The notes below the pieces were generated by a model. That model had not been told where the DNA came from and ran no database searches. It worked only from the letters and a program-made list of their open reading frames with translations. A DNA stretch of 64,000 bases from positions 3,274,501-3,338,500 of the forward strand of contig NC_019703.1 in NCBI RefSeq assembly GCF_000317045.1, read 5' to 3'. A program made the position numbers and the translations under genes. Source of the DNA: Geitlerinema sp. PCC 7407. Lineage in GTDB: Bacteria > Cyanobacteriota > Cyanobacteriia > PCC-7407. Of the stretch, positions 5,783 to 20,057 are shown one piece after another; position 1 is the first letter of the stretch, and each line of letters starts with the position of its first letter.

Positions 5783-6176
5783 ACAACGCCTTCTTTCAAG
5801 TCAAGATGGAAGGGAAATTGGTTAGGATCATCCGAAATTAGGGAACACCACAATAGAGCATCCCAAGAATACTGAAGGAGCGATCGCCGCCGAGCTTCAA
5901 ATATTCCTGTGACTGGGCTGGATATCGCGTAGGGTTTAGGCCCATTGTGAAACTATTTCCAGCCGTTGGGCGTCAGCCCGAGGGAAGCAGGCCAAGCCTT
6001 TGTCAGCATCATACGCGACCTCGGATCCTTCCCCAGACCGAGTCCCAGCAAGCCCAGACGCTCTTTGATCCATCCTCCTGGCATCCGATTTCGTCCGGGG
6101 AGTCGGCAGGAAAATCAAAGAGCGATCGCCCCCACCCGGGATGAATGTTCCAGCAGGTTCCATCAAGACTCGCACC
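5783..6176. other. Divergent intergenic region between FHA gene and kinase gene
   Basis: This 394-base gap must hold the promoters of both the leftward FHA-MscS unit and the rightward kinase. Short frames here overlap one another and look like no protein. I see no clear -35/-10 pair or operator. One HIP1-like GCGATCGC lies near the kinase start. Confidence 0.5.
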
Positions 6177-8162
6177 ATGGCACTGAATTTTCTCCGGCGA
6201 CAGCAGTCCACCGACGAGCCCCAGCCCCTGGGTGGGCGTTACCACGTTCTGAGCCGTCTGGGGGGAGGGGGCTTTGGCCAAACCTTCCTGGCCGAGGACC
6301 TGCACCTGCCGGGACACCCGCGGTGCGTCGTCAAGCAGCTCAAGCCCCAAGTTTCAGATAGCGCCAGTCTCCAGACTGCTCGCCGCCTTTTTGACACGGA
6401 GGCTCAGGTTCTGTATCAGCTGGGCAGCCACGATCAGATTCCCCGACTGCTGGCCCACTTTGAGCAAAGTCAGGAGTTCTATCTGGCTCAGGAACTGGTG
6501 GAAGGTCGGCTGCTCAGCCAAGAGCTCCAGAGCAATCAGCCCTGGAGTGAGGCGCAGGTGGTGGCGCTTTTGCAGGACTTGCTGACGGTGCTGGCCTTTG
6601 TGCATCAGCAGAACGTGATTCACCGGGACATCAAGCCGGCCAACCTGATTCGTCGTCAGCGCGATCGCCGCATTGTGCTGATTGACTTTGGGGCTGTCAA
6701 GCAGGTGAGCACTCAGCTGGCAGACACGCGCACTCACCAAACGAACCTGACGATTTCCATTGGCACCCAGGGCTACATGCCCAACGAGCAGCTGGGCGGC
6801 AATCCCCGCTTTAGCAGCGATCTCTATGCAGTGGGTAAGGTGGCGATTCAGGCCCTGACCGGGGTGCATCCGCGCCACTTGCAGGAAGATCCCCAAACCG
6901 GGGAAGTGGTTTGGCGCGATCGCGCTCCCGACACGACGCCCGAGCTGGCGGACTTTTTGGACCGGCTGATTCGCTACGACTTCCGAGCCCGCTATGCGAC
7001 GGCTGTCGAGGCCCTAGAGGCCCTAGAGGCGCTCCCCGAGGAGCTGCGCGAGGCGTCCACCACCGTGGTGTGGCCAAGCGTTCCGGCCCAAGCCATTCCG
7101 GGTCTGGAGGGTCCGCTGGCCACTGAGGGGACCACCGTTGACGCGGGCTCTGTGGGCAGTACCCTAGTCCCGGAGGCGGGGCTCGCGGGCAGCTGGACCC
7201 CTCAGAAGTCCAGCCAGACTGGCCCCACGGTCCCGATGATGGTCACAGGATCGTCGCAGAGTGCCTCTAGGGGAACGCCGCTGGCGCTGCAGCCGATCAC
7301 CTGGGTGGCGGCGGCGCTACTCCTGGGGGCAACCGCCTGGGGAGCGTGGAGCCTCTTGGGCGATCGCCCGCAGTCCCTGGAGGCCTCTGTCCAGGCCAGT
7401 CAGTCTCCCGAGGCCAGTCCTCCGGAAACCGCAGCGTCGCCAGCGCCGACTGCCTCGCCGACGCCTAGCAGCGCGCCCAGCCCCTCGCCCAGCGCGAGTC
7501 CTAGCCCAGCCGCTGCCACAGCCTCACCGACGGGGGCTTCTCCGGCCCCGGCGGCCCAGCCTGCGACGCCCGCCGGAACCCCGGCCAATTCGGGACCGCA
7601 GGCCGCCCAGGTCCTAGCAAGCGCCCAAAAACTCCAAGAAGCCGAGCGCTATCCCGAGGCGCTGAGTGCCTTTGATCAGGCGATCGCCCTTCAAGAGGGT
7701 TCGGCGGAGGCCCATCAGGGACGCTGTTTCGCCCTGAACAAGCTCGGGCGCTTTGATGAGGCGCTTTCAGCCTGCAACCGGGCGATCGCCCTCAATAGCA
7801 ACTACCCCGAAGCGCACTGGAGCCGAGGGTTTGCCCTCGACGCCACGGGCCGCCACGGCGAAGCCCTGGCCGCCTACGATCAGGCGATCGCCCTCAACCC
7901 CAACTACAGCGAAGCCTGGAGCAACCGCGGGGCCGCTCTGCTGATGCTCAAGCGAGACGCCGAGGCCCTGGCTGCCTTTGACCGCGCCACCGAGCTCAAT
8001 CCCCAACTGGCCGAAGCCTGGAACAACCGCGGCGCCACCCTGTGGAACCTGGGACGCTACGAAGAGGCCCTAGCGTCGGTCAACCGCGCCCTGGAAATTC
8101 GCCCCGACTACAGCGACGCCCGCAGCCTACAGCAGCAGATGCGCGCCCGGATCGGCGGATAG
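6177..8162 (+). CDS. Ser/Thr protein kinase with TPR repeats, membrane-anchored
   Basis: 661 aa from the ATG at 6177 (MALNFLRRQQ); an in-frame ATG at 6141 is the alternative, and neither has a clear Shine-Dalgarno sequence. The kinase domain (about 20-280) has the glycine loop GGGGFGQTF, the VVKQL lysine, the HRDIKPANL catalytic loop and DFGAVK. DFGAVK and the GYMPNEQ activation segment mark the cyanobacterial Pkn-type subfamily. One membrane helix (about 375-393) and a Pro/Ser/Ala-rich linker lead to about five TPR repeats (480-655), which probably lie outside the cytoplasm and bind a partner. It is divergent from the FHA gene. Confidence 0.92.
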   Translation: MALNFLRRQQSTDEPQPLGGRYHVLSRLGGGGFGQTFLAEDLHLPGHPRCVVKQLKPQVSDSASLQTARRLFDTEAQVLYQLGSHDQIPRLLAHFEQSQEFYLAQELVEGRLLSQELQSNQPWSEAQVVALLQDLLTVLAFVHQQNVIHRDIKPANLIRRQRDRRIVLIDFGAVKQVSTQLADTRTHQTNLTISIGTQGYMPNEQLGGNPRFSSDLYAVGKVAIQALTGVHPRHLQEDPQTGEVVWRDRAPDTTPELADFLDRLIRYDFRARYATAVEALEALEALPEELREASTTVVWPSVPAQAIPGLEGPLATEGTTVDAGSVGSTLVPEAGLAGSWTPQKSSQTGPTVPMMVTGSSQSASRGTPLALQPITWVAAALLLGATAWGAWSLLGDRPQSLEASVQASQSPEASPPETAASPAPTASPTPSSAPSPSPSASPSPAAATASPTGASPAPAAQPATPAGTPANSGPQAAQVLASAQKLQEAERYPEALSAFDQAIALQEGSAEAHQGRCFALNKLGRFDEALSACNRAIALNSNYPEAHWSRGFALDATGRHGEALAAYDQAIALNPNYSEAWSNRGAALLMLKRDAEALAAFDRATELNPQLAEAWNNRGATLWNLGRYEEALASVNRALEIRPDYSDARSLQQQMRARIGG

Positions 8163-11205: not shown

Positions 11206-12852
11206 TTAGATGCGGCTTTGGGCGATCGCCGGATCCGTCGACGTCAGCCCCGCGCCCCGCTGGGGATGGAGGGACGCTCCCTGCTGCAAAGCCGCGCAGA
11301 GGCGGTTCAGGGCATTCAGGTAGGCCTGGGCCGACGCCACAATGATGTCGGTATTGGCGGCATGGCCCGAGAACAGCCGATCTTCGTGCTTGAGGCGAAT
11401 CGTCACCTCGCCAATGGCGTCGATCCCGGCCGTCACCGACTGGACCGAAAACTCCACCAGCTGATTGGGCACCTCAACCACGCGATTGATCGCCTTGTAC
11501 ACCGCATCCACCGGCCCTGTGCCAATGGCCGCGTCCGTCAGCTCCTCACCGTCGGGCGTCCGCAGGGTGACCGTCGCCGTCGGCCGCGCGTTGCTGCCGC
11601 AGGAGACCTGCACCAGCTCCAGCCGGAACAGCTCTGGGGCCTGCTGGATTTCGTCGTTGACGATGGCTTCCAGGTCACGATCGGAGATGTCTTTTTTCTT
11701 GTCGGCCAGCTCTTTGAACCGCACAAAAGCCCGATTCAGGTCCTGATCCGCCAGGTCAAAGCCCAGCTCCCGCAGGCGCGTCCGGAAGGCGTTGCGGCCG
11801 GAGTGTTTGCCCAGCACAATTTGGTTGTCGGTCAGACCGATAGACTGGGCGTCCATGATCTCGTAGGTGAGCTTGTTCTTGAGGACGCCGTCCTGGTGAA
11901 TGCCGGATTCGTGGGCGAAGGCGTTGGCGCCGACGATGGCCTTGTTCGGCTGGACCAGCATCCCGGTCAGGTTCGAGACCAGGCGCGAGGTTTTGTAGAT
12001 CTGGCGGGTGTCGATGTTGGTGAGGGGCGCTTCGGAGTCCTGTGGGCGGCCCAAGAAGGGGTTGAAGTAGCGGCGGCGCACGTGAAGCCCCATGACCAGC
12101 TCTTCGAGGGCAGCATTGCCGGCCCGTTCACCGATGCCGTTGATGGTGCACTCGAGCTGACGAGCACCATTCTTGACGGCTTCCAGGAAGTTTGCCACCG
12201 CCAAGCCCAGGTCATTGTGACCGTGGACCGAAATAATGGCCTTGTCGATGTTGGGGACGTTCTCTTTGATGCCGCGAATCAAGGCGCCGAACTCAGCTGG
12301 CGTCGTGTAGCCAACGGTGTCGGGGATGTTGATGGTGGTGGCACCGGCGGCGATCGCCCGCTCGAGCACCTGGTACAGAAACTCCGGCTCCGATCGGCCC
12401 GCATCCTCCGGCGAGAACTCAATGTCATCCACGAAGGATTTGGCGTAGGCGACCATCTCCTCGGCGATCGCCAGCACCTCGGGCCGCGTCTTCTTCAGCT
12501 TGTACTGGAGGTGAATGTCCGACGTCGCAATGAAGGTGTGAATGCGAGGCTTGGCCGCTGGCTTGAGGGCCTCCGCCGCCGCCTTGATGTCCTGCTGGGT
12601 CGCGCGCGCTAGACCGCAGATCGAGGGGCCGTCGGGAGAACCTACCTGAGCAGCGATTTTTTGTACAGCCTCAAAGTCCCCAGGACTCGCAAAAGGGAAC
12701 CCCGCCTCGATCACATCGACCCCAAGCCGAGCCAGCTGGCGCGCAATGGTCAGCTTTTCATCCACATTCAGCGTTGCGCCAGGAGACTGCTCCCCGTCGC
12801 GGAGGGTGGTGTCAAAAATGATGATTCGATCCTGAGGGGGGTTTGTGCTCAT
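11206..12852 (-). CDS. leuA: 2-isopropylmalate synthase
   Basis: 548 aa from the ATG at 12852 (MSTNPPQDR); an in-frame start 27 bases upstream is less likely. It condenses 2-oxoisovalerate with acetyl-CoA, the committed step of leucine synthesis. The TIM-barrel HMGL-like domain (about 10-280) has [12 protein letters not shown] with the metal/substrate residues and the HGHNDLG metal-binding pair. [11 protein letters not shown] follows, and the C-terminal leucine-binding regulatory domain (about 390-520, ending [13 protein letters not shown]) is intact, so feedback inhibition by leucine is expected. No leader peptide rich in leucine is evident upstream. Confidence 0.95.
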
Positions 12853-13196
12853 AGTTGTTGAGGACTCGCAGAAGTTCAAAGAAAATCAGCAGGGAAAAAG
12901 CAATCTCAGACGCCGTCGGGGCTTGAGGCGCATCGCTCAGGGCGAACAGCAGCCCCAGTCTCCGATGGCTGAACACAGGAGCAAGGCGCTGAGTATCAGA
13001 GTATCAAGGGTCGTCACCAGCAGCATTCACAGGGGGGGAGCAGCCCCAGGCCGCTGCATCTAGACCCGCTGCGGGGCGATCGCCCCCGTACCCACCGTAA
13101 GACCATTCTAGTCGCTGGCTTTACCTCGCCGTATCCCAGAACTCCGAAAAGTCGGGCCGGCGATCGCTCAACCTGGGCAAGCTATCTTTTCGCCAG
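12853..13196. other. Intergenic region upstream of leuA
   Basis: 344 bases between the leuA start and the 3' end of the LabA-like gene. It is GC-rich with HIP1 sites near 13075 and 13160 and G/C tracts that could pair (around 13033-13085). I see no confident promoter or terminator. Confidence 0.45.
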
Positions 13197-13715
13197 TCAG
13201 GCATCCATTTTTTCGATAAACGGGCGAATATCATTCAGGTCAATATAGCGGTCTGTGGCATTGCGCAACTCGCGCGCAATCATGCCTTCTGTAGAAACAA
13301 CCGTGATGTGCGTACTTTTCGATCGCAGCAGCTCGATCGCCCGCTCAAAATCACCATCACCGCTAAACAAAATCACCTGATCGTATTGCTCAACGGTATT
13401 AAACATATCAATAACAATTTCGATATCGAGATTCGCTTTTTGGGAGTAGCGTCCCGAGTTATCGTCGTAATACTCTTTAAGAATTTTAGTTCGGACCGTA
13501 TAGCCTAAGCTGATCAGGGCATCTCGAAAACCTCGCTGGTCTTGAGGATCTTTGATGCCGGTATACCAAAAAGCATTGATCAGGTTAATACCGGGTTCTC
13601 GGGTGAAATACTCTAAAACGCGACGAGGATCAAAGAACCAACCGTTTTTCTGCTGTGCATAAAACATGTTGTTGCCGTCGACGAAAATCGACAGCCGATT
13701 TTTGGGATAACTCAT
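13197..13715 (-). CDS. NYN-domain protein, LabA/DUF88 family
   Basis: 172 aa, a single NYN (PIN-like) domain. The acidic residues of the nuclease-like centre are visible: FVDGNNMF near the start, then DIEIVIDM and FSGDGDFERAI. LabA in Synechococcus elongatus affects circadian output, and other members are RNases or RNA-binding proteins; which applies here cannot be told. It is monocistronic. The coding sequence is more AT-rich than its neighbours, as for a housekeeping-type small gene. Confidence 0.88.
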   Translation of the reverse strand: MSYPKNRLSIFVDGNNMFYAQQKNGWFFDPRRVLEYFTREPGINLINAFWYTGIKDPQDQRGFRDALISLGYTVRTKILKEYYDDNSGRYSQKANLDIEIVIDMFNTVEQYDQVILFSGDGDFERAIELLRSKSTHITVVSTEGMIARELRNATDRYIDLNDIRPFIEKMDA

Positions 13716-14310
13716 AGAAGGTTAGACCTAAAATTTGTAGAATTGAGCCGAGCCAGCGTCCTTTTATGGGCTGGCTAGCATTGGTGAAAAGACCTGCAAG
13801 GGAGATTGATTTCCCTCACACCGAAGTTTTGAGCCTAAAGAAGTATTTGAGTTAAGGGTAATTTTAGTTCTTTAGGAATTGACTACACAGATGAGTAAGG
13901 GTTAGGTAGAAGCAAAATTAACTGGGATTCTCATTGAAGGAAGTCTAGAGTAGGAAATAGGCTGAATTAAGAGGGTATTTTGAGCTGATCCTATTATAGG
14001 GTGCACTGCAAAGCCCTCTCGCTCATGGTGGCAGAAAAGCTCGATCAGCGATAGAGCCGGGACTCGCGGGACAGCCTTTCCGGTCAAAGAATTTACGGAA
14101 AGGGGCGATCGCCGGTGGAGATCAGGGGCAGGGAGACGCGCTTTTTTGTCGCTTGGGATCCCAGACCAATCTTGAGCTAGGTCGATCTTGGGAAAGAAAT
14201 CGTCTTCGCCTCGGGTTGGACTTGGGCACAATGGTTGCTATCGAACCCCGCTCAATTGCCGCTCCTATTCCGCCCCGCCCTCCAACGACGGGGTCTCTCG
14301 GAGGCTTCCG
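13716..14310. other. Divergent intergenic region, 595 bases
   Basis: It separates the leftward LabA-like gene from the rightward CHASE2 kinase gene. An inverted repeat CCTTTCCG/CGGAAAGG lies at 14075-14082 and 14096-14103. Small frames here do not resemble proteins. A Shine-Dalgarno-like GGAGG at 14300-14304 precedes the kinase ATG at 14311. Confidence 0.5.
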
Positions 14311-16728
14311 ATGACCGCAGAAAAACCTGCTTTTAGCAATACCACGTCGCTGGGCCAGCGCTTGAAGCTGCGAGCTCGTCAGTGGTGGACGCTCCGACGG
14401 TTGGGCCATAGCCTGGCGGGGGCGATCGCCTTGCTGGCAGCAGCGGGGACGGCAACCGAAGTGGGCCTGGTCCAGCTCCTAGAGCGCCAAAATCAGGCTT
14501 TCTTTTTTGAGGTGCGCGGTCCCAGGACGCCGCCCCAGGACATTGTTATTTTGGCCATCGATGAGCAGTCGATCCAGCAGGGCAAAATCCACGCCATGGA
14601 GCCCGAGCGCTACCCGTTCCTGGCGCCGCTGCAATCTTGGCCCTGGCAGCGCACGGCCTACGCGATCGCCATCGAGCGCTTGCTAGGGGCGGGGGCCAAG
14701 GCGGTCGGGGTCGACGTGATTTTTGATGCGCCGGGCATCTATGGCGAGGCGGATGACGAGCGCTTTGCCAAAACCCTGGCGCGCTACCGCTCCCAGGTGA
14801 CGCTGGCAGCGCAGTTTGAGGAGGGGAGCGATCGCGGCGGCTACGTGTTTCAGCTCGCTGAGCCCCAAACTCGCTTCCTGACCGGGGGCACCCTCACGGG
14901 ATACATCAACTATCCCCTGAGTGCCAACAGCGAAGTCCAAGAGCTCAACAGCCGCTATCTCTGGCACGTCCAGCGCAATAATCCAGATCATGGCGACTTT
15001 TTACAGACGATCGCCGACGACGTGCCGTCCTTTGACCAGGCAGTCCTGGCGTCTGCCCAGGCCTCCACGCCGCCTCTCAGCGGCAGCGACATCTTTTTCT
15101 ATGGGCCTTCCGGAACCTTCGAGCAAATCCCCTTTTGGCACGTTCTCGATCCGAGCAACTGGAATACCTACCTCCAGAGCGGCGCCTACTTCAAAGACAA
15201 AATTGTGCTGATCGGCGCCACCGCAGCATCGGCCCAAGACTTTCACAACACGCCTTTTGGCCTCAGCCTCCTGTATCCTCAGCCCATGGCAGGCATCGAG
15301 ATCCACGCGAATGGCATCGCGACGCTGCTGGAGGGACGAGCGATCGGCGACTTGCTACCCGGGTCGGGGGCGCGAGGCGGACTGGTCTTGGTTTTGGTGC
15401 TGGGAGCTAGCGCCCTGCTCAGTCGGCAGCGCCGATTGGAGCACCAGTTTCTCTGGCTGAGCGCACTGGTGCTGACTTGGCTGATTGGCAGCTATAGCCT
15501 ATTTACCTATGCCCAGCGCCGAGTGCCCACGGCTACGCCGATCCTGGCGATCGCCCTGGGGGGCTTTGGCTACATGGGGACCACCTACTGGCAAGACCAG
15601 CAGCGTCGCCGCCAGCTCCGTCGCACCCTCAAGCACTACGCTGGCGCGCCCCTCGTCCAAGAAATTCTGGGACAGCAGGATGATTTTCAAGACTTGCTGG
15701 CCGAGCGGGAGCAGGAAGTGCTGGGCAAGCTGCTCGGCAATCGCTACCGCGTGCTAAAAGTCTTGGGCTCTGGAGGCTTTAGCGCGACCTACATCGCCGA
15801 AGACACCCAGCGCCCCGGCACGCCCCAGTGCGTGGTGAAGCAGCTGCGGCCCGCCAGCAATGATGTGAAGGTCTTGGCCCTGTCGCGGCGTCTGTTTGAG
15901 CGAGAGGCCGCCACCCTCGAAAAGCTCGGCAAACATGACCAAATTCCGCAGCTTTTGGCCTATTTCGAAGAAGATGCCGAGTTTTATCTGATTCAGGAAT
16001 TCATCATTGGCCATCCCCTCAGCGAGGAGCTCCCCCTCGGTAAGCAGATTCCTTCGGCGCGCGTGCTGCGGATGCTCGAGGACTTGCTGGAGGTGCTGAT
16101 CTTTGTCCACCACCACGGGGTGATTCACCGGGACATCAAGCCGAATAACATCATTCGGCGCCACAGCGACAATAGGCTAGTGCTGATTGACTTTGGGGCG
16201 GTCAAGGAGATGCAGACCCAGGCCAGCGGCGAGGGCGGGACAGAGGCGGCCTTGACCATTGGCATCGGCACGCGGGGATACATGCCCAGCGAGCAGTGCG
16301 CAGGGATGCCGCGCTTTACGAGTGACCTGTACGCGGTGGGAATGACGGCCATTCAGGCGCTGACGGGGCTTCCCCCGGACCAGCTCAAGGAAGACCCGAA
16401 GACGGGGGATCTCGTTTGGCAACATCGGGCCCGCGTGAGCCACGAGCTGGCAATGATTCTGAGTCAGATGGTGCGCTATGACTTCAAGCTGCGCTATCAG
16501 TCTGCGGATGAGGCGCTGGCAGCGCTGCGATCGCTCCAGTCCAGCGGCGCGATCGCCGAAGAGAGCGAGCCTGAGACGGCTGTTTCTGGCAATTTCGCAA
16601 ACGCCCTGGATGACGGCGAGGACGAGCGGCCCTCGACGCTGCTGTGGCCGGAGGGCTTTGATACTGCCCAAGTTTCTGAAGAGCCAGAAACGGCGATCGC
16701 CCCTGACGCTAGCCCACCGTCAACCTAG
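14311..16728 (+). CDS. CHASE2-domain transmembrane Ser/Thr protein kinase
   Basis: 805 aa from the ATG at 14311, supported by a GGAGG six bases upstream; the frame opens earlier, but that part is poor in coding character. The first membrane helix (about 28-55) is followed by an extracytoplasmic CHASE2 sensor (about 60-345; DIVILAIDEQSIQQG, FKDKIVLIGATAA, MAGIEIHAN). Three membrane helices (350-430) lead to the kinase domain (about 480-740): GSGGFSATY, VVKQL, HRDIKPNNII, DFGAVKEM. It shares the DFGAVK subfamily mark with the kinase at 6177. The CHASE2 ligand is unknown. It converges on the FecR gene with a 34-base gap. Confidence 0.93.
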   Translation: MTAEKPAFSNTTSLGQRLKLRARQWWTLRRLGHSLAGAIALLAAAGTATEVGLVQLLERQNQAFFFEVRGPRTPPQDIVILAIDEQSIQQGKIHAMEPERYPFLAPLQSWPWQRTAYAIAIERLLGAGAKAVGVDVIFDAPGIYGEADDERFAKTLARYRSQVTLAAQFEEGSDRGGYVFQLAEPQTRFLTGGTLTGYINYPLSANSEVQELNSRYLWHVQRNNPDHGDFLQTIADDVPSFDQAVLASAQASTPPLSGSDIFFYGPSGTFEQIPFWHVLDPSNWNTYLQSGAYFKDKIVLIGATAASAQDFHNTPFGLSLLYPQPMAGIEIHANGIATLLEGRAIGDLLPGSGARGGLVLVLVLGASALLSRQRRLEHQFLWLSALVLTWLIGSYSLFTYAQRRVPTATPILAIALGGFGYMGTTYWQDQQRRRQLRRTLKHYAGAPLVQEILGQQDDFQDLLAEREQEVLGKLLGNRYRVLKVLGSGGFSATYIAEDTQRPGTPQCVVKQLRPASNDVKVLALSRRLFEREAATLEKLGKHDQIPQLLAYFEEDAEFYLIQEFIIGHPLSEELPLGKQIPSARVLRMLEDLLEVLIFVHHHGVIHRDIKPNNIIRRHSDNRLVLIDFGAVKEMQTQASGEGGTEAALTIGIGTRGYMPSEQCAGMPRFTSDLYAVGMTAIQALTGLPPDQLKEDPKTGDLVWQHRARVSHELAMILSQMVRYDFKLRYQSADEALAALRSLQSSGAIAEESEPETAVSGNFANALDDGEDERPSTLLWPEGFDTAQVSEEPETAIAPDASPPST

Positions 16729-16762
16729 CGCCGCAAACCGTTCAGGCCCAATAAACACAATC

Positions 16763-18355
16763 TCAGTTTTGTCTGGGCAAGCCAGGCAAATCAAATACCG
16801 GGTTGCCCGGGGGTCTATCGGGTGGGTTTGCTGGCGGGTTAGGAGATTTTCCTGGCTTCCCCCCCAGATTAATCCCCAAATTGGCCAAATTCAGACCAAT
16901 TCCGACGTCGCTAGAGGGTGTGCTCTCCGGCACAGGAGCGGGGTTAACGGAGATGGGTGGCTCCACCGGCATCGGCGTGACGTCGGGCTCTGGCTGGGGC
17001 GATGGAGGCGTATCCGGAGTGACCGGGATCGTCGTTGGCGGCTCGGCTGGCGTAGTAGGCGTCCCCGCAGGATCTGGCGCTGGGTCTACCTGGAGAGGCG
17101 GCTGATTAGCCACAGGCCCCTGAGGAGCGGGGTTGCCTGCATTTGGTTGGGCCGGAGTTGCGGGCGTTGCCGGAGTCCCAGGACCATTGGGCTGGGCTGG
17201 GGTCGCGGGCGTCGCTGCGTTGTTGTTGCGTCCGCCGGGCTGGGCCGGGGTCGCGGGCGTTGCCGGAGTCCCAGGACCGTTGGGCCGGGCCGGAGTTGCA
17301 GGCGTCGCCGCGTTGTTGTCGCGCCCGCCGGGCTGGGCCGGGATCGCGGGCTGGGCTGGGGTCCCAGGACCGTTGGGCTGGGCTGGGGTCGCGGGCTGCG
17401 CGGGACTAGCACCGGGCCGCGTCGGGATCATGTCGAGGCCCCGCATGATTGCGGGCTGAGGCTGGGCCGGCGCCACCGGGTTGGGCTCAAACTGGGACGC
17501 TGGCACCGCCTCTAGAAACTGGGTTTCGCCTGCTTCGAGCAAGCGGTCTGGGTGGACATCAATCGTGGGGCGCAGGGGAACGCCCTCTGGTGGCGAGCTT
17601 TCGGTGCGGGTAGAGACCGCGCTGAGAAAGTCTGGATTTTCCTGCATGGGCATTTCTGCCAAGGAGCCTTGGGACGCCAGACCCCGACGGATCTCGGCTC
17701 GCACTTCATCGAGGGCAGCCCCTTCAATGGCGATCGCCTGGGGATTTTCGGAGGAGAGATCTAGGCCCTTGACGATTTCACTGGTGGCGTAGAAGGAGCT
17801 CAGGTCAAATTCGTATACGCCTTGCAGGCGATCGCCCTCAAACACCGCCATTTGGCCTGCGGCGAGCGTTTGGGTTCCCTGCTCATTCGACACCGTAATG
17901 CCAGAGTCGGTCAGGGCCGCAACAATACTAGTCTGCGTCTCGGGCACATAGCGCACAAACAAGGCAGAACCTCGAATGCCCGCCGTCGCGTTGGGAGTGC
18001 GAATGCGAGTCAAGCCTTGACCAGGCCGAATCAGAGCCAAGACCGTACCACCGCGCAGGTCAATGTCTCGGGTGTTGGGCTTGAAGTTGAAGAGGGCTTG
18101 AGCGCCCAAGCGGGCGAGGGAGCCGTCGTTGAAGACGACATCCGCTGAAGAGCCACTTCCCGTCGAGAGCGCATCCCCAGGCACCATTGGGTCGGAGAGG
18201 CGGGCCGGTCGAGCCGGCTGGCGCTGGGGTTGGAGCCGAACAATATTGCGGATCTGCTGCACGGTCGCCCGGGTCAATGGAGTCAGGGCGTAACTCGCTT
18301 GTGCCCCTAGGCTCCAGATTAGGACCGTCAAGACCAGGATTAAACGCCGAGACAT
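16763..18355 (-). CDS. Secreted FecR-domain protein with Pro/Ala-rich repeats
   Basis: 530 aa. A signal peptide (1-24, ending ASYALT) is followed by a FecR domain (about 60-165; GDALSTGSGSSADVVFNDGS, then TPNATAGIRGSALFVRY). A region of unknown fold comes next, then a low-complexity tail (about 310-480) of PATPAQP-type repeats. Two nearly full copies of a 31-residue unit are visible, with partial copies on each side. FecR domains of this kind in cyanobacteria occur in the periplasm and are often encoded beside CHASE2 receptors. Here the neighbour is a CHASE2 kinase, which suggests a joint sensor. The gene is divergent from a barrel-protein gene. Confidence 0.88.
   Translation of the reverse strand: MSRRLILVLTVLIWSLGAQASYALTPLTRATVQQIRNIVRLQPQRQPARPARLSDPMVPGDALSTGSGSSADVVFNDGSLARLGAQALFNFKPNTRDIDLRGGTVLALIRPGQGLTRIRTPNATAGIRGSALFVRYVPETQTSIVAALTDSGITVSNEQGTQTLAAGQMAVFEGDRLQGVYEFDLSSFYATSEIVKGLDLSSENPQAIAIEGAALDEVRAEIRRGLASQGSLAEMPMQENPDFLSAVSTRTESSPPEGVPLRPTIDVHPDRLLEAGETQFLEAVPASQFEPNPVAPAQPQPAIMRGLDMIPTRPGASPAQPATPAQPNGPGTPAQPAIPAQPGGRDNNAATPATPARPNGPGTPATPATPAQPGGRNNNAATPATPAQPNGPGTPATPATPAQPNAGNPAPQGPVANQPPLQVDPAPDPAGTPTTPAEPPTTIPVTPDTPPSPQPEPDVTPMPVEPPISVNPAPVPESTPSSDVGIGLNLANLGINLGGKPGKSPNPPANPPDRPPGNPVFDLPGLPRQN
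17130..17420. repeat. 93-bp coding tandem repeats in the FecR-domain gene
   Basis: The DNA encodes two near-identical 31-residue units (PAQPGGR, NNAATPATPA, PNGPGTPATPAT) plus partial flanking units. Such repeats expand and contract by slippage, so copy number may vary between strains. Confidence 0.75.
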
Positions 18356-18827
18356 AGTCTTCTTTCCTCGCGGCTGAGAACCAAATAAAAACCAGGCGCA
18401 GGGGTGTCGCCGCTCGCCAATTCACAATTGAACCCGTTGCGGTGCTGGTAGGTTCCCTGATACTCCCATCTCTATGGTCGCGCATATCGTCCAAGCCTTG
18501 CAGTCTGGCGATCGCGGACTTCTTTGATCTGCACCCACCCCTCATCTCAGTGTAATCACCAGACCCAGCGGGTGTGTCGAAAATTGTTAGTTCTTCAATT
18601 CAGCGCTTTTTGCGGCGCGAAAATCTCTCCATTGACAGAATTTTGTTAAATTCACTCAATCAGGTGCTTCCGGTCGCTGAGAATCAGGGTTAGGCAAGAG
18701 CAGTGATTTCTACGTGAACCCACTGAGGGCAATGCTAGGCTAACGATTTGTGCAATTCATCCCTCGCAAGGATCAGAAGTGCACGATCAGCCGTCTGAAA
18801 GCTGACAGCAAGGGATGGGAGAGACCT
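18356..18827. other. Divergent intergenic region between FecR and barrel genes
   Basis: 472 bases carrying both promoters. A TTGACA near 18632-18637 lies in an AT-rich stretch, but no well-spaced -10 follows it. The barrel gene has a GGGAGAG Shine-Dalgarno-like sequence just before 18828. Confidence 0.45.
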
Positions 18828-20057
18828 ATGTATCAGAGTTGTTTCTTGGGTCATGACAGCGTTCTAGGACCTCTGGGACTGGGGACGCTGGGGGTTGTTG
18901 GCCCGTGGATAGGGGCGATCGCCCTCATTGCTCAGCCCTCGGCTGCGCTAGCCGAGGAAAGCGAAATAACGGCGATCCAGGACGCGCCCGCTGTTTTGGA
19001 TACGAGCGGCGATCGCCCGTTTCCGGCCCAGAGCATCCCTTTTTCTCCCCCGGACTTTTTGCAGCTGCCGCCGGACGCGCCGGCGCGCCTGCTCGGTCCG
19101 GTCTCGGCTCCCTCAGGGCCTAGCCAGTTCGCTCAAGAGTCTCCTCCCTCGACCATTATTCAAGACCCCACAGAGCCCTCTCGGCAGCTTGACACCGTCC
19201 CTCGCCCGGGCCAGCCCGCCCCGCCCATCGGCGTTCCTGCCACCCCCACCGACGGCACGGGCGAGTCCGAGGTGCTGGGCGATCCGGAACTGGGCGTGAT
19301 TCGCGTGCGCCCCTTGCCGACGCCCACCGCAGAAGCCACGCCGCCCACGCCACCCCCCGCCCTCTATCTGCTGGGGAACGCTACCTATTTCAGCAGCGAC
19401 AATATTTTTTCGATTCGCGATCCGATCGCCGACGGTCTGATCCAGACGGGTCTGGAGCTGTGGGGCGTCTATCCCCTCAGCTCCCGGACGGCCTTGATCG
19501 GCTCCGTGGGCGGCAACTTGGTGCGCTATCAGGACCAGTCAGAGTTTGACTACAACGAGCTGCGCTTTGAGGCGAGCGTGCGTCATGCTCTGTCGCCGCG
19601 GATGTACGGCGAGGTGGGCTGGAGCAACCAAAACCTGTTTTATCGGGAAGGGGGCGATCGCTTTCTCAATGACCACGCCCTCCGCTTGGCCCTGGGCCGC
19701 ACCGATCCGCTCACTGACAAGCTCGCTCTCGACACGCTCTATCAGCTTCAGGTCAGCTTTGCCGATCCAGACAACCGCAGCCGCATTTTGAATTCCCTCG
19801 GCGCGTCTTTGCGCTACGACGTCACCGAAGAATTTCAGGCGAGTCTGGCTTACCAGCTCGGCCTGAGCAACTTTACCGAGAGCGATCGCGATGACTTTTA
19901 TCAGCAGCTCTTGGGCGTTTTGAACTATCAGTTTTCGGAGCGCGCCCAGCTCACGGTGTACGGTGGATATCGCTTCGGGAACTCCAGCAACGACTTGGTG
20001 GACTTTGATGGGGGGCTCGTCGGCGTCAGCCTCGGCTTCAATCTGCCGCTTTTTTAG
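18828..20057 (+). CDS. Outer-membrane beta-barrel protein with Pro-rich N-terminal part
   Basis: 409 aa from the ATG at 18828. A hydrophobic signal segment (about 18-45, ending SAALAEES) and a Pro/Thr-rich region (about 60-170) are followed by about 235 residues of alternating strands: ALYLLGNATYFSSDNIF, RTALIGSVGGNLVRY, RMYGEVGWSNQNL and QLTVYGGYRFG. It ends in ...LGFNLPLF with the terminal Phe typical of outer-membrane barrels. I do not recognise a named family. It is divergent from the FecR-domain gene and lies in the CHASE2 kinase cluster, so an envelope role with them is a reasonable inference. Confidence 0.8.
   Translation: MYQSCFLGHDSVLGPLGLGTLGVVGPWIGAIALIAQPSAALAEESEITAIQDAPAVLDTSGDRPFPAQSIPFSPPDFLQLPPDAPARLLGPVSAPSGPSQFAQESPPSTIIQDPTEPSRQLDTVPRPGQPAPPIGVPATPTDGTGESEVLGDPELGVIRVRPLPTPTAEATPPTPPPALYLLGNATYFSSDNIFSIRDPIADGLIQTGLELWGVYPLSSRTALIGSVGGNLVRYQDQSEFDYNELRFEASVRHALSPRMYGEVGWSNQNLFYREGGDRFLNDHALRLALGRTDPLTDKLALDTLYQLQVSFADPDNRSRILNSLGASLRYDVTEEFQASLAYQLGLSNFTESDRDDFYQQLLGVLNYQFSERAQLTVYGGYRFGNSSNDLVDFDGGLVGVSLGFNLPLF

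Follow-up and report, generated by a model that had tools for sequence, protein, structure and literature searches.

The stretch analysed here (the window) comprises 64,000 nucleotides, positions 3274501-3338500 of the single 4,681,111-bp chromosome of the cyanobacterium Geitlerinema sp. PCC 7407. It contains three adjacent genes, coding for a CHASE2-domain Ser/Thr kinase, a secreted FecR-domain protein and an outer-membrane beta-barrel. The kinase and FecR genes lie tail to tail, with 34 base pairs between their stop codons, and the FecR gene is divergent from the barrel gene. An initial annotation had described this three-gene layout, and the open reading frames are present as described, with Pfam domains identifying the kinase and FecR and an AlphaFold2 model the barrel. 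In positions of the window, the features are the following.

14311..16728, + strand: CHASE2-Ser/Thr kinase, 805 residues (Pfam CHASE2 and Pkinase, catalytic motifs, hydropathy)
16763..18355, - strand: secreted FecR protein, 530 residues (Pfam FecR, AlphaFold2 model, PDB fold matches)
18356..18827, no strand: divergent FecR/barrel intergenic region, presumed site of both promoters
18828..20057, + strand: outer-membrane 12-strand beta-barrel protein, 409 residues, C-terminal Phe (AlphaFold2, PDB fold matches, family alignment A1)
19281..19310, + strand: linear motif DPELGVIRVR, part of the disordered linker ahead of the barrel; 1-3 copies in relatives

The barrel gene probably starts at the ATG at 18828, which stands ahead of the signal-peptide-like segment of the protein; the listed GTG at 18750 is a possible but less favoured start.

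The three proteins and the linker motif

The kinase matches Pfam CHASE2 at residues 46-348 (E=1e-40) and Pkinase at residues 479-735 (E=1.1e-29), and its catalytic motifs are intact (G-loop GSGGFSAT, CVVK, HRDIKPNN and DFG). The CHASE2 domain is flanked by hydrophobic segments in the hydropathy profile, and the predicted topology is a hydrophobic segment, periplasmic CHASE2, further hydrophobic segments and a cytoplasmic kinase domain. With an extracytoplasmic CHASE2 domain and an intact Hanks-type kinase, the protein belongs to the CHASE2-domain Ser/Thr kinases (cbSTKII), an architecture already catalogued in cyanobacteria (PMC2176072) in a survey where FecR and outer-membrane partners go unmentioned. 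In the 4.68 Mb genome, CHASE2 genes number 8 and FecR genes only 2; the adjacency of the two families is beyond chance because each FecR gene adjoins a CHASE2 gene. The other FecR gene (284 residues) overlaps a gene whose product is a hybrid histidine kinase with a CHASE2 domain as well as receiver and Hpt domains (both genes at L101:5387-9350, - strand, ~1.80 Mb).

The FecR protein scores 38.2 bits against PF04773 (Pfam cut-off 24; E=2e-9; residues 62-138). It begins with a signal-peptide-like segment (residues 5-24), is free of cysteine and has no second hydrophobic segment. In the AlphaFold2 model, a single confident beta domain (residues 30-182) and a helix are followed by a disordered, proline-rich tail of ~290 residues (27% Pro). 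Fold matches in the PDB are the anti-sigma factor BDI_1681 and the cell-surface-signalling (CSS) domain of PupR (E ~1e-5), and this CSS-like fold, together with the Pfam match above cut-off, places the protein among those with a FecR domain.

No Pfam family matched the barrel protein above cut-off, the STN, plug and TonB-receptor families included. AlphaFold2, supplied with 47 relatives, predicts 12 strands at residues 179-407, nearly all with a predicted local distance difference test (pLDDT) score >90, behind a disordered linker. The fold matches in the PDB include the 12-strand channels KdgM, NanC and COG4313 (template-modelling score by target 0.62-0.73, 11-13% identity).

One short segment of the disordered pre-barrel linker is conserved, of the form DPELGxLRLR and in 1-3 copies per protein. 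The relaxed motif [ED]LGx[LIV]x[LIVF] occurs in 44 of 47 linkers, with 80 copies where shuffled linkers gave 0.5; these counts partly reflect shared ancestry, so the shuffle test shows conservation and not repeated origin. The strict form appears in no other open reading frame of the loci compared, and a degenerate DNA pattern of the motif has a single match genome-wide, which is the barrel gene. A repeated strand-like motif in a flexible periplasmic tail would fit a putative docking site for the beta-rich FecR domain.

Co-inheritance and gene linkage in cyanobacteria

The distribution of the three genes was followed in a set of 146 genomes from the class; each species is represented once, and many of the genomes are drafts. 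The barrel family was detected with one query sequence, the long FecR was counted at E<=1e-30, and the kinase was counted as a CHASE2 protein of at least 770 residues, a length rule set after the lengths had been viewed and then checked by domain. The barrel is present in 53 genomes and the long FecR in 52, with 51 common to both. CHASE2 proteins of at least 770 residues occur in 53 genomes, and the kinase domain was confirmed in all except G030, the unlinked proteins having been domain-checked; each of the 52 genomes with a verified kinase also bears the barrel. The kinase is missing from one barrel genome only, G055, whose barrel is distant (27% identity). Fisher p-values of these co-occurrences range from 1e-35 to 1e-39 when shared ancestry is ignored. 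Since other CHASE2 proteins show no association with the barrel (p=0.54), the pattern is not simply an effect of large genomes. Co-occurrence of the barrel with the other two genes, on which the initial annotation had staked its proposal, is near-perfect in this sample.

The two families of mixed status (f24 and f32) give the same picture: barrel and kinase are concordant in presence or absence in 21 of 21 genomes scored, and a single genome of this comparison (G144) carries FecR without barrel and kinase. On a LeuA tree of 61 genomes, the barrel state changes 12 times, 4 of these changes being forced by supported branches. Among well-supported independent pairs, FecR and the kinase follow the barrel in ~3/4, and the opposite direction is almost never seen.

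Linkage is tightest between FecR and the barrel. Of the 55 barrel loci, 53 are uncut by a contig end, and in 52 of these FecR immediately adjoins the barrel on its 5' side (the exception is L069). FecR is divergent in 37 of the 52 and co-directional in 15, and no other equally conserved neighbour was found in the 55 barrel loci. A contig scan by barrel-alignment pattern was unworkable owing to few conserved stretches, and FecR served as query instead. The FecR sequence alone retrieved 80 named loci, a few of them from genomes also in the first barrel-locus set; 78 have a barrel nearby, and all are cyanobacterial (Nostoc, Calothrix, Fischerella, Gloeocapsopsis and others).

A CHASE2 gene, for a kinase or a cyclase, adjoins the FecR-barrel pair in 23 of the 55 loci, against ~3% expected for a neighbourhood of such size with ancestry ignored. 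Three layouts recur: the arrangement of the window, with the kinase tail to tail (families f1, f13, f25 and f27); kinase, FecR and barrel co-directional (f9, f11 and f24); and barrel, short FecR and CHASE2 guanylate/adenylate cyclase, the long FecR being divergent (f7 and f16). At L050, L055, L056 and L068, a member of the same barrel family has a short FecR and a CHASE2 cyclase (guanylate/adenylate) as neighbours, closer still to the nsrA-cyaK layout of Sinorhizobium discussed below.

Where the kinase is unlinked from the pair, the order leuA-NYN-kinase is found in 16 genomes. Because this neighbourhood matches that of the window, the unlinked kinases are orthologs by position, and the FecR-barrel pair and the kinase are co-retained even when far apart. 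The neighbours in question are considered outside the system and served to establish kinase orthology.

11206..13715, - strand: leuA and an NYN-domain gene, conserved kinase neighbours

The leuA-NYN-CHASE2 kinase order (window 11206-16728) is conserved over several cyanobacterial families, with no functional link evident. Another Ser/Thr kinase gene lies 8 kb upstream of that for the CHASE2 kinase, at 6141-8159 (+ strand); its product has TPR repeats at the C-terminus. Some LeuA hits have an in-frame TAG in the matched stretch (G000:C1:2918039-2919664, a paralog, and hits in G029, G043, G132, G139 and G146); in several genomes of genus g28 such a hit is the single listed copy, and the TAG may be near the C-terminus. 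Promoter and terminator calls at the locus gave nothing convincing, and in 30 divergent FecR/barrel intergenic regions neither NtcA, HLR1, PHO and Fur-like sites nor enriched 8-mers stood clearly above shuffles.

A proposed relay from the outer membrane to the kinase

The shared pattern of retention and loss of the three genes among cyanobacteria makes it probable that they constitute a single, hitherto undescribed system reporting cell-surface conditions inward. We assign a probability of roughly 60% to a single envelope-spanning sensor running from the barrel through FecR and CHASE2 to the kinase. The loops or pore of the barrel would encounter a cue from outside the cell or convey the condition of the outer membrane. 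The 1-3 DPELGxLRLR copies in its periplasmic disordered linker would then bind the folded FecR domain, taking the place of the folded signalling domain that TonB-dependent receptors use in classical Fec/Pup signalling. Its long proline-rich tail may let FecR span the thick cyanobacterial peptidoglycan, and contact with the periplasmic CHASE2 domain would alter the activity of the cytoplasmic Ser/Thr kinase. A sigma factor would not be needed, because FecR has no cytoplasmic part. The chain from barrel to kinase had been proposed in the initial annotation and gains from the co-occurrence and from the distant NsrA-CyaK precedent; the binding of linker to FecR and of FecR to CHASE2, the outside-in direction, the cue and the kinase substrates are what we infer.

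Several points weigh against such a sensor. Resolution of the LeuA tree is weak, and too few pairs are available for significance in a sign test, and the Fisher p-values take no account of shared ancestry. Further, the kinase is located elsewhere in ~30 genomes, so linkage is not obligatory, and next to some barrels there is not the kinase but a CHASE2 cyclase, so the barrel may serve several receptors. Finally, the NsrA precedent is functional and architectural only, because the barrels have no detectable sequence similarity.

An alternative that we consider unlikely, albeit a serious contender, is that FecR and the barrel are a structural or transport pair, in which FecR plugs an outer-membrane channel from the periplasmic side, anchors it or assists its assembly. 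The kinase would sense or regulate the pair or be merely a frequent neighbour, and nothing would flow from barrel to kinase. FecR and barrel are indeed linked far more tightly (52/53) than the pair is to a CHASE2 gene, whether for the kinase or not (~40%), and the barrel is akin to the 12-strand channels KdgM and NanC. However, the kinase is present in 52 of the 53 barrel genomes and nowhere else in the sample, CHASE2 receptors have been brought beside the FecR-barrel pair by three different gene orders, and the FecR fold resembles signalling domains.

It is decidedly improbable that FecR and the CHASE2 kinase form a two-component periplasmic sensor, a scheme put forward for FecR-CHASE2 operons in other settings, and that the barrel merely shares the FecR promoter region. 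Although FecR-CHASE2 pairs that lack this barrel are frequent (the second FecR gene of the genome, G007, G023 and Burkholderia; PMC5192318), a long FecR without the barrel occurs in just 1 of 52 genomes, and the co-directional kinase-FecR-barrel loci have no shared divergent promoter. Classical Fec-type cell-surface signalling with an unlinked extracytoplasmic function (ECF) sigma factor, to which the likeness of the FecR fold to the PupR CSS domain might point, is rejected on anatomy and deserves hardly any credence, as FecR opens with a signal-peptide-like segment and lacks any cytoplasmic anti-sigma portion, the barrel has no STN, plug or TonB-receptor Pfam match, and no sigma factor was matched among the neighbouring genes scanned.

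To our knowledge, neither ligand nor trigger has been established for CHASE2 receptors, and little is understood of how outer-membrane information reaches the Ser/Thr kinases of Gram-negative bacteria. A module that is near-perfectly co-inherited in ~14 cyanobacterial families names candidate partners of a CHASE2 receptor, and its candidate docking motif is just ten residues long. Both questions become testable in culturable Fischerella, Calothrix and Nostoc.

Comparison with known systems

No description of the cyanobacterial FecR-barrel-CHASE2 link was found in the literature searched. The initial annotation had taken CHASE2 and FecR co-occurrence to be known in cyanobacteria; the search gave only examples from Burkholderia (PMC5192318) and Campylobacterota (PMC9239204). 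The BiofilmReg operon of Burkholderia encodes a LysM-FecR protein and a CHASE2 histidine kinase, and thereby also places a periplasmic FecR beside a CHASE2 receptor. It differs from the present module by its response regulator, histidine kinase and LysM domain, and contains no barrel. In Campylobacterota, a CHASE2 adenylate cyclase is clustered with a FecR-domain outer-membrane protein; the likeness is again that of a CHASE2 receptor clustered with FecR, whereas the cyclase output, a phosphodiesterase and a TPR protein set that cluster apart.

Classical Fec/Pup signalling (FecA-FecR-FecI; PupB-PupR) shares with the module an outer-membrane barrel with a periplasmic extension and the FecR/CSS fold. 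However, the module has a 12-strand barrel and neither a TonB-dependent receptor nor an STN domain, and its FecR is secreted instead of membrane-anchored, with no anti-sigma segment. The remark in the initial annotation that no sigma factor is visible holds for the flanking genes scanned, where no ECF sigma factor was matched, the genome not having been searched for sigma factors.

The nearest characterised system is NsrA-CyaK of Sinorhizobium meliloti, which is also the strongest outside support for reading the genes as a barrel-FecR-CHASE2-kinase chain. NsrA (1197 residues) has a FecR domain (1.5e-15), TPRs and a C-terminal barrel region, and its gene overlaps cyaK, which encodes a CHASE2 cyclase. 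By the genetic evidence that two reports summarise (PMC7529298, PMC13001267), NsrA is required upstream of CHASE2 cyclases. As with CyaK (and CyaD1/D2), the likeness lies in a FecR domain and an outer-membrane barrel encoded with, and in the proposed relay signalling to, an inner-membrane CHASE2 receptor. Genetic coupling of FecR and barrel to such a receptor is the NsrA-type feature that the module shares, and the FecR domains of NsrA and the window protein align (hhalign E=3e-6). The barrels, in contrast, have no detectable sequence similarity (hhalign probability 0.1; one NsrA sequence). Further, FecR, TPRs and barrel reside in one protein in Sinorhizobium, whereas the module has separate FecR and barrel genes and no TPR match; the output is cyclic AMP there and a Ser/Thr kinase here; and the DPELGxLRLR linker motif belongs to the cyanobacterial module. 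The module may, as a tentative proposal to which we give somewhat less than even odds, be a split, kinase-driving counterpart of NsrA, in which the barrel signals via repeated strand motifs to a secreted FecR that gates a eukaryotic-type Ser/Thr kinase, a sigma-independent relay widespread in cyanobacteria.

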